Source: Actinoalloteichus fjordicus
GTDB taxonomy: Bacteria > Actinomycetota > Actinomycetes > Mycobacteriales > Pseudonocardiaceae
NCBI RefSeq assembly: GCF_001941625.1
Contig: NZ_CP016076.1
Coordinates: 992,001-1,056,000, forward strand
Reading direction: 5' to 3'
DNA length: 64,000 nucleotides
A program made the translations under genes and the position numbers. Each line of letters begins with the position of its first letter. Positions within the stretch are counted from its first letter, which is position 1. Positions 55,711 to 59,425 of the stretch are shown here, piece after piece. The notes under the pieces are model-generated. The model made no database searches, was not told the DNA's origin, and saw only the letters and a program-made list of their open reading frames with translations.

Positions 55711-57789
55711 ATGGGCGGGCAGCAGGAACCGGCGTCGGGACTCGATCCGGAGCAGCGAGCGGCGGTCCTGGCTCCGCGCGGCCCGGTCTGTGTGCTGGCG
55801 GGCGCCGGGACCGGGAAGACCCGCACGATCACCCGCCGGATCGCGTACCTGGTCCGGCAGGGGCACGTCGCACCGGGCCAGGTGCTCGCGGTCACCTTCA
55901 CCAAACGGGCGGCCGCCGAGATGCGCACCCGGCTGCGGGCGCTGGACGCCACGGGGGTGCAGGCACTCACCTTCCACGCTGCGGCGCTGCGGCAGCTGCG
56001 GTACTTCTGGCCGAGGGTGATCGGCGACGACCAGTGGCGGCTGCTGGACAGCAAGCTGCCGGTGGTCGCGCAGGCGGCCAGGCGCGCGGGTGCAGGCACC
56101 GATCGCGAGACGCTACGCGACCTGGCGAGCGAGATCGAGTGGAGCAAGGCCTCGCTCATCACCCCGGAGGACTACCCCGCCGCCGTCGCGCGGGTGCACC
56201 GGGCCACGCCTGCCCCCGCCGAACAGGTCGTCGCCGTCTACGCGACCTATGAGCGGCTCAAGAACGAGGCGAGCGCACTGGACTTCGATGACCTCCTGCT
56301 GCACACGGCGGCCGTCATGGAGGAGCACGGCGACGTCGCCGAGGAGTTCCGTGATCGCTATCGCAGCTTCGTGGTCGACGAGTATCAGGACGTCACGCCG
56401 CTGCAGCAGCGGGTGTTGAACGCGTGGCTTGGCGAACGAGACGACCTGACGGTGGTCGGCGATGCGAACCAGACGATCTACTCCTTCGCGGGCGCTTCGG
56501 CGCGTCCGCTGCTCGACTTTCCGCGTCGCTTCCCCGAGGCTGCGGTGATCCGGCTGGAACGCGACTACCGCTCGACGCCGGAGATCGTGTCGCTGGCCAA
56601 TCGGGTGATCGAGATGGCGCGGAACCGGCCTGCCGGGTCGCGGCTGCGGCTGATCGGTCAGCGCCCGTCCGGTCCGCCGCCCGCCTTCACCGAGCACGAC
56701 GACGAGTCGGCCGAGGCGGCTGCGGTGGCCAGACGGATCAAGAACCTCCTCGCGGCGGGCACCTCGGCGGGCGAGATCGCGATCCTGTTCCGGGTGAATG
56801 CGCAGTCGGAGGTCTACGAACAGGCCCTGAGCGAGGCCGACATCCCGTATCAGGTGCGCGGTGGTGAGCGCTTCTTCGCCAGGCCGGAGGTCCGGCAGGC
56901 GATGGCGGCCCTGCGCACCGACGGCGCGCTGTCGGAGGATCGGCCGCTTCCGGTGCGGGTGCGGGCGGTGCTGGCGCGGCTCGGCCTCGGGGAGCAGCCG
57001 CCGGAGGGCGGCGCGGCGCGGGAGCGCTGGGAATCGTTGCGGGCACTGGCGGAGCTGGCCGAGGAGACCGCGAGCATCGCACCGGAGACCGACCTCGCGC
57101 GGTTCGTCATCGAGCTGGACATGCGTGCCGAGGCCCGGCATCCCCCTGCGATGGAGGGCGTCACGCTGGCGTCGCTGCATGCCGCGAAGGGCCTGGAGTG
57201 GGATGCGGTGTTCCTGGTCGGGCTGGCCGAGGGCACGCTGCCGATTCACCAGGCCGACGGGGACGACGCCGCAGTGGAGGAGGAGCGCAGGCTCTTCTAC
57301 GTCGGCGTCACCCGAGCGCGGCACCATCTGTCGCTGTCGTGGGCACTGGCCAGGGCGGAGGGCGGCAGGCGCTATCGGCGGCGTAGCCGTTTCCTGTACG
57401 GGCTGGTTCCGGAGGATCATCCGTCGTCTTCGATCGGCAGGGCGAGTGCGGGCCGGGTGTCCTCGCGTGCCGAGGCGGCCCGGTGTCGGGTCTGCGCCTC
57501 GGCGTTGACGGCGACCATGGCGATCAAGCTGGGCCGGTGCGAACACTGCCCGGCCGATCTCGATCAGGATCTGCTGGATCGGCTGCGTGCCTGGCGCGGC
57601 GATCGAGCGCGGAAGCTGGGCGTTCCGGGCTTCGTGGTGCTCACCGACGCGACGCTGACGGCCATCGCCGAGCAGCGTCCCTCCGACGTCGCCGCGCTGG
57701 TGCGGATTCCCGGGATCGGCGCCACCAAGCTCGATCGCTTCGGCGGTGAGGTGATCTCCCTGGTGCTCGGTGCGGGTGCCGGCTCCTGA
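55711..57789 (+). CDS. uvrD2: UvrD2-type superfamily 1 DNA helicase with HRDC domain
   Basis: The 692-residue product has Walker [10 protein letters not shown] near 30, [28 protein letters not shown] near 227, [39 protein letters not shown] and [13 protein letters not shown]-terminal tetracysteine (CRVCAS near 592; CEHC near 612) links to an HRDC domain ([16 protein letters not shown] through [13 protein letters not shown]). This arrangement is specific to actinobacterial UvrD2. It lies between nudC and whiB7 as in mycobacteria, with a DUF418 gene inserted. Confidence 0.93.
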
Positions 57790-57980
57790 TGATGTCACCT
57801 GATCGGACTAGTGGCGGGTGGGCGTCCTGCGGCGTCGACTCACCGCGTCCGACGTGAGCCTTCGGCGCCGAGCTGTACCGGGTCGCGAACGGTCTCGGTG
57901 CCGTCACCTGCGGAGATGTCGAGGGACTGCCGGGTGATCGGATGAATTCAAGATCATCAAGAAAACCCTCGGAAAATAAG

Positions 57981-58010
57981 TTGCGCGCGTCCGTGCGCGC
58001 CCCATAACCT
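57981..58010 (+). promoter_or_regulatory. WhiB7-type autoregulated promoter
   Basis: TTGCGC (57981-57986), an 18-base spacer and TAACCT (58005-58010) form a vegetative promoter. Immediately upstream of the -35 is GGAAAATAAG, the AT-tract position where WhiB7's AT-hook binds in its known regulon. It predicts a leader of about 410 nt before whiB7. Confidence 0.7.
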
Positions 58011-58071
58011 GCATCAGGCAGGCCGAGAAGGCCTGGTGACGTTCTTCGATCCCCGGAAGGAGGCGGCCGAG

Positions 58072-58302
58072 ATGAGGCAGCTCAACATCCCAGTGACCCC
58101 CGGCCGTCGGCTGTCCGGGGTTACTGCCGTGTTCTGGGGAGACGGTCGCGCGCGTCGCGTTCACGATCAGGTGGCAATGGCCATCTCTGGGTGGGCGCTG
58201 TCTTCGCGCGTTGCCAAGCAGGACACACGGCCGAACGGCGTGAGCCCGTTCGCCATCGAACGAACCCATCCTGTCCGCGCAGGAGCGCAGTCTCTGACCT
58301 AG
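58072..58302 (+). CDS. Upstream open reading frame (76 codons) in the whiB7 leader
   Basis: ATG 58072 has GGAAGGAGG at 8-base spacing, one of the best ribosome sites in the window, and the frame stops with TAG at 58300. The peptide is basic and lacks a recognised domain (MRQLNIPVTPGRR... to ...AGAQSLT). The stop lies 20 bases before the intrinsic terminator. In mycobacteria and Streptomyces a leader uORF couples ribosome inhibition to whiB7 readthrough; this fits that role. It may act through translation rather than through its product. Confidence 0.65.
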   Translation: MRQLNIPVTPGRRLSGVTAVFWGDGRARRVHDQVAMAISGWALSSRVAKQDTRPNGVSPFAIERTHPVRAGAQSLT

Positions 58303-58322
58303 TCAGGTAAGACTGATCGATC

Positions 58323-58360
58323 AGGCCGCGGACTCCAATCGGAATCCGCGGCCTTCTTGT
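58323..58360 (+). terminator. whiB7 leader attenuator (intrinsic terminator)
   Basis: AGGCCGCGGA (58323-58332) pairs with TCCGCGGCCT (58345-58354); after one mismatch three more pairs close an AATC loop. The following TCTTGT is moderately U-rich. It lies between the uORF stop and the whiB7 ATG, where it would stop transcription unless antiterminated. A small ACCT/AGGT hairpin at 58297-58308 overlaps the uORF stop. Confidence 0.75.
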
Positions 58361-58426
58361 CGTCTTCGGACGACTTGGGCTGTCGCGGGCCCGATGAGAA
58401 TTCGATGAAGATCAGAAGGAGAACGC

Positions 58427-58798
58427 ATGTCTACCGCGACCGTCTCTCTGGCGCGAGACGTTCTGCCGGGACCGAGGGAATCCGACTCCAGCGTGGTCGG
58501 TATGGGCGACCTGCTGGTCGCCGTTCCCGACGACGAGACCGAGCTGCCCTGCCGTGTTCAGGACCCCGACCTGTGGTTTGCGGAGAACCCGGCCGAGCTT
58601 GCGCGGGCCAAGCAGCTCTGCGAGACCTGCCCGATCATGGCCGCGTGTCTGGCCGGTGCGCTTGCCCGGCGGGAGCCGTGGGGCGTATGGGGCGGTGAGA
58701 TCTTCGAGAGGGGATCGGTCATCGCCAAGAAGCGGCCTCGGGGCAGGCCGAGGAAGGCCGACAGCCCGATCATCACCGGAAAGGGGGCAGCGGCATGA
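58427..58798 (+). CDS. whiB7: WhiB7 transcriptional activator
   Basis: ATG 58427 has AGAAGGAGA at good spacing; the product has 123 residues. It has the four [4Fe-4S] cysteines (PCRVQD near 42; CETCPIMAAC at about 65-74), the WhiB turn GVWGGE near 87 and the AT-hook RGRPRK near 105 that defines WhiB7. WhiB7 binds SigA region 4 and activates ribosome-protection, efflux and antibiotic-resistance genes. The stop overlaps the start of a small downstream gene (ATGA). Confidence 0.95.
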   Translation: MSTATVSLARDVLPGPRESDSSVVGMGDLLVAVPDDETELPCRVQDPDLWFAENPAELARAKQLCETCPIMAACLAGALARREPWGVWGGEIFERGSVIAKKRPRGRPRKADSPIITGKGAAA

Positions 58799-59016
58799 AC
58801 GACACCGCCTACCTGCGTGCTCGCACGGTCCACGTCCCCGGCGCCGACGTCATGACGCATCTGCCGGATGCGCTCACCCGCGCTCGAATACGAGAGTTGG
58901 AAGACGAGATACATCGATGTCGAATAGCGGCTCGATTTCGACGGCGCGGCCGATGGCGCAGGCTGTCGGCGTTCATCGCGAAGCGAGTCGCTGCCGCCGA
59001 TCGCTCCTTGAGCTGA
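58795..59016 (+). CDS. Small basic protein translationally coupled to WhiB7
   Basis: ATG 58795 lies in an ATGA overlap with the whiB7 stop, giving 73 residues. The N-terminal part is short and neutral; residues 27-60 form an amphipathic, strongly basic helix (RIRELEDEIHRCRIAARFRR, then RGRWRRLSAF). No known domain. Coupling implies equimolar production with WhiB7 under drug or translation stress. A G/C-rich hairpin follows its stop. Confidence 0.6.
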   Translation: MNDTAYLRARTVHVPGADVMTHLPDALTRARIRELEDEIHRCRIAARFRRRGRWRRLSAFIAKRVAAADRSLS

Positions 59017-59030
59017 GTCGGTGAACCAGG

Positions 59031-59070
59031 CCGGGCGGGCCGTCGATCCGAGGATCGGCGGCCCGCCCGG
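59031..59070 (+). terminator. Hairpin terminator after the whiB7 operon
   Basis: CCGGGCGGGC...and...GCCCGCCCGG arms enclose about 20 bases that themselves pair partly (CGATCC/GGATCG), giving a long stable hairpin 15 bases after the small gene's stop. Confidence 0.65.
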
Positions 59071-59086
59071 CTTCGTCGTCTCCGGG

Positions 59087-59347
59087 GTGCGCACGGTGTG
59101 TTCGGTGACCGTCGGCGGGCCTCGGGCGCCGACCGACGGCGGGCGGGGCGTCGTCGCTCTGGTCCGGGCCAAGGTCCTCGACGGTCCCGATCGCGACGCC
59201 TTGTCCTCAGTGGAGTGGCAACAGCGCCATGACCAGTGCCGACGGCGCCTGGAAGCGATGAACCCGGCCGATCGGCAGGTTTGGACGGTCGACTGGCTGC
59301 CCCGTCGCGAACAGCTTCGGGAGGCGACGATGCGCGTGGTGACCTGA
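59087..59347 (+). CDS. Possible small protein downstream of the whiB7 operon
   Basis: An open frame from GTG 59087 (start uncertain) ends at 59347. The last 55 codons have good GC3 bias and encode a helical basic segment (SSVEWQQRHDQCRRRLEAMN ... WLPRREQLREATMRV). No ribosome site is clear and the first part is Gly/Pro-rich. I do not recognise it and it may be spurious. Confidence 0.25.
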   Translation: MRTVCSVTVGGPRAPTDGGRGVVALVRAKVLDGPDRDALSSVEWQQRHDQCRRRLEAMNPADRQVWTVDWLPRREQLREATMRVVT

Positions 59348-59425
59348 TCCAGTCCGACCCCAGGCGGCCGGGTCGGTGGGGCCCGTTCCGGGGTGGGGGC
59401 GCTCCACCCGCAGGCGATGATTACA

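Follow-up and report, generated by a model that had tools for sequence, protein, structure and literature searches.

We analysed the region upstream of a whiB7 gene in a 64,000-nucleotide stretch of DNA (the window), which covers positions 992001-1056000 of a 7.12-Mb single-contig genome. The genome probably belongs to Pseudonocardiaceae, in that loci from genomes of its family are identical to Amycolatopsis, Pseudonocardia, Prauserella and Labedaea records. In actinomycetes, whiB7 is a switch for intrinsic resistance against drugs that target the ribosome. The gene codes for a protein of 123 amino acids that has a Whib domain, recognized above the Pfam cut-off (1.2e-15), a WGVWGGE turn and an AT-hook-like stretch, KKRPRGRPRK, whose Pfam AT_hook score lies below the cut-off; the WhiB domain together with the AT-hook marks it as a whiB7 ortholog. 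The gene upstream of it (55711-57789) encodes a helicase of the UvrD type that carries an HRDC domain. The whiB7 leader, of about 410 nt, contains a promoter, an upstream open reading frame (uORF) with a Shine-Dalgarno sequence, and an intrinsic terminator, in that order. These parts could be read directly at the positions given in the original prediction, including the end of the uORF at 58302 and the 10-bp stem that starts at 58323. The features are as follows.

57971-57980, + strand: A/T tract GGAAAATAAG, directly 5′ of the -35 element (from sequence)
57981-58010, + strand: promoter, with -35 TTGCGC (57981-57986), an 18-nt spacer and -10 TAACCT (58005-58010) (from sequence and conservation)
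58019-58035, + strand: small hairpin CAGGCC-GAGAA-GGCCTG, near the predicted 5′ end of the transcript (from sequence and fold)
58055-58063, + strand: Shine-Dalgarno sequence GGAAGGAGG for the uORF, separated from the ATG by 8 nt (from sequence)
58072-58302, + strand: uORF of 76 codons, MRQLNIPVTPGRRLSG...PVRAGAQSLT, an open frame from ATG at 58072 to TAG at 58300-58302
58273-58279, + strand: 5′ strand of the antiterminator, GTCCGCG (RNA GUCCGCG), inside the uORF tail (from folds and covariation)
58288-58315, + strand: stop-codon hairpin CAGTCT CTGAC CTA GTCAG GTA AGACTG, nested in the antiterminator (from the fold)
58323-58360, + strand: intrinsic terminator, with a stem 58323-58332/58345-58354 of 10 bp, a C.A mismatch, 3 apical bp and the tail TCTTGT
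58327-58333, + strand: 3′ strand of the antiterminator, CGCGGAC, part of the 5′ arm of the terminator (from folds and covariation)
58427-58798, + strand: whiB7

For comparison we assembled whiB7 loci from four sources: the best 80 named loci of a longer list, 3 loci of the same genus (the window's own included), 27 more found by searching 200 Pseudonocardiaceae genomes, and 80 stretches hand-picked for spread over genera. In the family genomes searched, whiB7 was matched at E≤1e-15 in 198 of 200, with one match in 195 of these and two in 3. The 190 loci yielded 189 with one whiB7 (L027, with two WhiB motifs, was excluded) and 176 distinct leaders. Some terminator was called in 175 of the distinct leaders, and 173 had one of -19 kcal/mol or better; L052, L059 and L067, which had no strong terminator call, were excluded from this set of 173. 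The set comprises 110 leaders with a genus label of the family and 63 others, Mycobacterium and Rhodococcus among them.

A simple consensus scanner detected neither the promoter nor the terminator of the leader, because the -35 and -10 elements and the T-run are non-consensus; support for both, therefore, comes from conservation and not from consensus. The pattern TTGC..17/18..TANNNT is present in 140 of the 173 leaders. TAACCT is the commonest -10 element among those 140 (84 leaders), and in 126 of them at least 8 of the 14 nt that precede the -35 are A/T. Sequence and conservation thus both give the predicted promoter an A/T-rich element at its -35, and the transcript would start near 58017. 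In mycobacteria, WhiB7 binds at the A/T tract by the -35; by analogy, the tract at 57971-57980 is expected to be a WhiB7 autoregulation element. G/C hairpins like that at 58019-58035 are visible by eye in other leaders, and this hairpin could stabilize the 5′ end of the transcript.

We then asked what relatives keep of the leader, the original prediction having staked itself on conservation of the uORF and the stem. Both are kept: besides the strong terminator, a frame ending near it was found in all 173 leaders. A search of this kind yields some open frame in most GC-rich sequence, so the informative features are the Shine-Dalgarno sequence and the distance from the stop to the terminator. 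Shine-Dalgarno-like sequences lie 5′ of the uORF in most relatives inspected, and the spacing from stop to terminator has a median of 26 nt (10-90% range, 22-32; 173 leaders). Over the same leaders the median uORF has 77 codons, and starts are ATG in 98 and GTG in 75, four of these starts (in the g28 leaders) being wrong. In the window, the predicted uORF with its Shine-Dalgarno sequence lies between the predicted start site and the terminator, and both other genomes of the genus have the same frame and stop.

The predicted terminator directly follows the uORF and has a fold energy of -25.3 kcal/mol, its T-run TCTTGT being weak. Under a stricter rule for the tail a terminator was found in 73 of 83 leaders. 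The original prediction had allowed that the uORF peptide and the terminator might both differ from described cases. This holds for the peptide, which varies from genus to genus, but not for the terminator, whose core GGCCGCGGA is nearly invariant across 67 aligned family leaders. Among class-level leaders, the terminator call was usable, as judged by eye, in 27 of 29; the calls at L192 and L198 were judged wrong by eye and are outside the 27.

Folding and covariation both point to an antiterminator composed of sequences from the uORF and from the terminator. When transcripts ending at 58334-58345 are folded, the strand 58273-58279 in the uORF tail pairs with 58327-58333 in the 5′ arm of the terminator. 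In the window fold, the probability of this antiterminator is 0.71-0.90 for transcripts ending at 58334-58346; once the transcript reaches 58354 it is 0.0, and that of the terminator is 0.98. The sequence of the uORF tail follows that of the terminator. Leaders with CGGAC terminators carry GTCCG in the uORF tail in 85 of 100 cases and GTTCC in 4, whereas those with CGGAA terminators carry GTTCC in 65 of 67 and GTCCG in 10; the remaining 6 of the 173 leaders have CGGAU terminators and are outside this test. The association (85 and 4 versus 10 and 65) gives p=1.1e-29 with counts that are not phylogenetically independent. Two upstream control stretches showed no association with terminator type (p=1.0 and 0.37). 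We also tabulated the 110 family leaders by genus and type, giving 44 rows from 40 genera, of which 35 were informative. Here the CGGAC rows comprised 23 with GTCCG and 0 with GTTCC, and the CGGAA rows 0 with GTCCG and 12 with GTTCC (p=1.2e-9). The nine unused rows were four CGGAC rows with neither motif, three rows with both (two CGGAA, one CGGAC) and two CGGAU rows; with the both-motif rows counted against the association, p was 4e-7.

A gapless antiterminator helix with 5 or more consecutive pairs can be formed in 169 of the 173 leaders, and individual columns show exchanges of whole pairs (C-G/A-U/U-A at one column, G-C/A-U at another). Of the 100 CGGAC leaders, 15 lack GTCCG; among them L034 and L038 carry GTTCG, which pairs through G-U, and Actinopolyspora leaders have another complementary stretch. 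Swapping the terminator arm for one of the other type weakened the mean gain from -11.7 to -8.5 kcal/mol, and shuffling the tail weakened it to -7.5 kcal/mol. In 140 of 173 leaders the native arm outperformed the average over 5 other-type arms, and in 150 of 173 the native tail outperformed the average over 5 shuffled ones. Real folds contained at least 5 antiterminator pairs in 97% of cases, folds with shuffled tails in 71%.

The energy of the isolated tail/arm duplex was at or below the 5% level of shuffles in 25 of 173 leaders (mean z -0.53). This test does not discriminate, because GC-rich arms pair with anything, and it was replaced by the type-specific covariation, nested-fold and arm-swap controls. 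RNAalifold found no pairs when given 67 leaders aligned with MAFFT, which we ascribe to variable loops and to an antiterminator strand that is displaced by 7 nt between leaders; the covariation therefore rests on the register assignment made in this analysis. In a 28-leader alignment, two antiterminator registers cannot share one structure line, which precluded a covariance model. In the wider class, all 27 usable leaders fold at least 6 antiterminator pairs, a count made without a shuffle control. Some of these leaders have diverged terminators, which are matched by a complementary uORF tail, as in L196, L205 and L208.

The uORF tail is shared between genera as RNA and is translated differently. 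The string GTCCGCGCAGGAGCG..AGT..CTGAC encodes PSAxERSP/T followed by a TGA stop in several genera. In all three leaders of the window genus it encodes PVRAGAQSLT followed by TAG, and the four g28 leaders inspected give VRAxAQ... In the window the other frame is open from 58244 for 17 codons and has no start codon. Overall counts of the tail frame, 78/60/11 of 149 leaders, partly reflect the 7-nt shift between types, and for this reason we used the shared-string comparison alone. That the same 3′ RNA is read in differing frames indicates that it is the RNA, not the peptide, that is kept. Comparing the three species of the genus over codons 2-54 gives pN/pS of 0.15/0.22, 0.34/0.33 and 0.35/0.32 (about 0.7 to 1.1), and judging from these sequences the peptide over this stretch looks nearly free. 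The last 22 codons are near-frozen, and RNA pairing accounts for this at least as well as the peptide does.

These observations bear on the possibility that the leader works as an erm-like arrest peptide, that is, that a specific uORF peptide stalls the ribosome in the presence of drug and so sets the RNA structure. Such a mechanism would fit the conserved position of the uORF, the near identity of its last 22 codons in the genus with pN below pS (0.03 versus 0.19 for L082 versus L084), and the ERSP or similar ending of many relatives' uORFs. Codons 2-54, however, change almost freely, and the different frames of the shared 3′ RNA speak for conservation of the RNA. In a search of the window uORF peptide against 83 whiB7 leaders, strong hits were to the same genus only, and the next best had an E of 0.087; no conserved arrest-peptide motif of the erm kind was seen in the uORF. 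We thus consider the arrest-peptide mechanism unlikely. Leaders of the erm type depend on specific arrest peptides and mostly act on translation. The window leader would resemble them in that a drug-stalled ribosome on a short upstream frame alters RNA folding, and differs from them in its predicted transcription termination and in having no conserved peptide.

An amino-acid-specific attenuator, on the pattern of the response to alanine starvation reported for mycobacterial whiB7, also appears quite unlikely for the window. Ten mycobacterial uORFs contain 32.4% Ala, and passages of PMC10727445 and PMC11550727 cite induction by alanine starvation in mycobacteria. Those uORFs are short (median 49 codons), and the loci that carry short Ala-rich uORFs include Mycobacterium L022, L048, L057 and L074. 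By contrast, Ala makes up 11.8% of the window uORF and 12.1% of 106 Pseudonocardiaceae uORFs, which is no enrichment over the 12.5% in 35 long open frames of the window chosen by length alone. The difference between the mycobacterial and the Pseudonocardiaceae uORFs fits alanine sensing as a mycobacterial speciality. The leader may still sense starvation more generally, at whichever codon is hungry.

At the stop codon of the uORF, the original prediction had noted a small hairpin, 58297-58308, and proposed it as the competing antiterminator. The hairpin exists, but its extent was drawn too small: those positions form just the top of a longer stem-loop that spans 58288-58315. Sequence around the uORF stop folds more stably than its shuffled versions (mean z -1.23, median -0.97; for windows 69 nt upstream the mean is -0.26), and the stability profile around the uORF is lowest at the stop (144 leaders). 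Pairs enclosing the stop occur in 164 of 173 leaders versus 144.5 expected from shuffles, a count that alone is not telling. The commonest stems are variants of CCTGAC..GTCAGG, and 50 distinct stems of at least 5 bp occur among the 173 leaders. Where TGAC..GTCA is present (99 leaders), the next pair is standard in 93, versus 80 expected by independence. Within the genus, visual inspection shows the pair 58293/58310 as U-A in the window and G-C in G002, with a mismatch there in G001. A stop hairpin of at least 4 bp nested in an antiterminator of at least 5 pairs was found in 131 of 173 leaders versus 21% in shuffles (160 of 173 without a minimum stem), and the mean energy of the nested antiterminator and stop hairpin was 7.1 kcal/mol lower than that of shuffles.

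The hairpin, though real and conserved as a structure, shares no base with the terminator stem and folds alongside it, so it cannot compete with the terminator alone; both are present when the whole terminator is folded. Exclusion of the terminator comes from the helix 58273-58279/58327-58333, within which the hairpin is nested. That the small hairpin itself is the antiterminator is thus very improbable.

To follow the effect of translation we placed a ribosome on uORF codons in the folds, in a strict and a permissive version. With the ribosome on codons 1-64, the antiterminator probability in the strict version was 0.64-0.93 at 12 of 13 tested codons, the exception being codon 10 (0.09). In the permissive version it was 0.69-0.93 at 9 of the 13, the exceptions being codons 40, 61, 62 and 64 (0.42, 0.11, 0.04 and 0.27). 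At six tested codons within 65-74 it was 0 in both versions, and at codons 76 and 77 it was 0 in the strict version and 0.49 and 0.18 in the permissive one. According to these folds, therefore, a long stretch of the uORF can sense, and a ribosome near its end favours termination.

Taken together, the leader is very probably a uORF-controlled transcription attenuator of whiB7. RNA polymerase would start near 58017 and a ribosome would load on the uORF. On reaching the end of the uORF, the ribosome would cover or separate the antiterminator strands and open the stop-codon hairpin; with the antiterminator lost, the terminator (58323-58354) would form and transcription would end before whiB7. Were the ribosome to stall anywhere in about the first 64 codons, through a drug or a shortage of charged tRNA, 58273-58279 in the uORF tail would pair with the arm 58327-58333 around the stop-codon hairpin. 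The antiterminator would then block the terminator and whiB7 would be transcribed, after which WhiB7 may raise its own promoter. Alternatively, the hairpin could be a fixed terminator, or mark where uvrD2 transcription ends, with a constant share of read-through that the uORF does not control. This would suit the end of the helicase gene at 57789, about 530 nt upstream, but is most improbable, given that a conserved promoter and a translated-looking uORF intervene and that the covarying pairing between uORF tail and terminator would have no role.

Passages of PMC11550727, PMC10727445 and PMC4128351 present uORF-mediated attenuation as established for whiB7/wblC, and the window leader therefore belongs to a known kind of switch. 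In the published model, as given in passages of PMC11550727, PMC10727445, PMC9618640 and PMC13393426, translation of the uORF leads to the terminator and stalling leads to the antiterminator; our ribosome-position folds, as calculations, agree with it. They also agree with passages of PMC4128351 that describe attenuated reads from the 5′ UTR of whiB7 in M. marinum and in M. bovis. The whiB7 attenuator of the original prediction, composed of promoter, uORF and intrinsic terminator, is thus backed by anatomy, by conservation and by these passages.

The window leader resembles those of whiB7 in mycobacteria and wblC in Streptomyces, as described in parts of PMC10727445, PMC11550727 and PMC4128351, in its orthologous gene, its length, its uORF with a Shine-Dalgarno sequence and the terminator after the uORF. 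It also resembles them in having an antiterminator made of uORF and terminator sequence, a likeness that holds at the level of those descriptions. Compared with known whiB7/wblC uORFs, that of the window is longer (76 codons versus a median of 49 in 10 mycobacterial leaders), is not enriched in Ala, has no recognizable peptide similarity and carries its tail in a different frame. A further parallel is the ilvB1 leader of M. tuberculosis, where, according to a passage of PMC13236596, one strand of the antiterminator is masked by a ribosome that has arrived at the stop codon, giving the terminator, and stalling upstream gives read-through. The sensor of ilvB1 in the same passage consists of four regulatory codons, LVVI, whereas the stall-sensitive region of the window spans about 64 codons in the folding model; no ilvB1-like run of regulatory codons was seen in the window uORF. 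We found no prior description of the stop-codon hairpin or of the antiterminator covariation in those parts of the literature that were searched, a comparison that lay outside the primary accounts (Lee 2022 Mol Microbiol, Burian 2012, Poulton 2024).

The outcome is a known kind of switch with a corrected antiterminator and a comparative refinement. With the antiterminator placed by covariation and the stop-codon hairpin located inside it, a general outline gives way to defined base pairs, each of which is open to mutation. The results suggest that the sensor reads the position of the ribosome rather than the peptide, which would explain induction by chemically unrelated inhibitors; most likely, the whiB7 leader is a general sensor of stalled ribosomes. 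An Rfam scan of 57001-59400 gave no match inside the leader at E≤1, and scans of 6 whiB7 loci from several families gave none at the gathering score. More tentatively, the leaders may constitute one old RNA family of Actinomycetes, without an Rfam match in the scanned loci. In this family the antiterminator would be a helix of uORF tail and terminator arm that closes around the stop-codon hairpin, and the hairpin may act as an arrival detector, opened only when a ribosome gets as far as the stop. Selection would keep the RNA and not the peptide, and lineages could have changed frame without losing the switch.

Other structures and frames were observed in and near the leader. Early in the uORF, at 58091-58126, lies a strong hairpin (CAGUGACCCC..GGGGUUACUG; z about -4.2 in the window), kept in the genus by eye, which might pace the ribosome or the polymerase. 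We rejected it as a feature of the family, its mean z over 144 leaders being about -0.2. Downstream lies a 73-aa open frame (58795-59016, + strand) with a start codon that shares bases with the stop of whiB7 (ATGA); the two other genomes of the genus retain it, at 74% and 41% identity. A tblastn search with it gave 9 rows at E≤0.01, including 2 for copies from the window itself, and weaker similar frames occur at L043, L046, L080, L106 and L110. It had no Pfam or NCBIfam match above cut-off, and its product is possibly a small partner protein of WhiB7. At 59030-59071, 3′ of this frame, there were Rfam mir-341 hits below the gathering score; they fall on a long GC inverted repeat (20 bp with one G.U and a 2-nt loop, by eye), which is perhaps a terminator.
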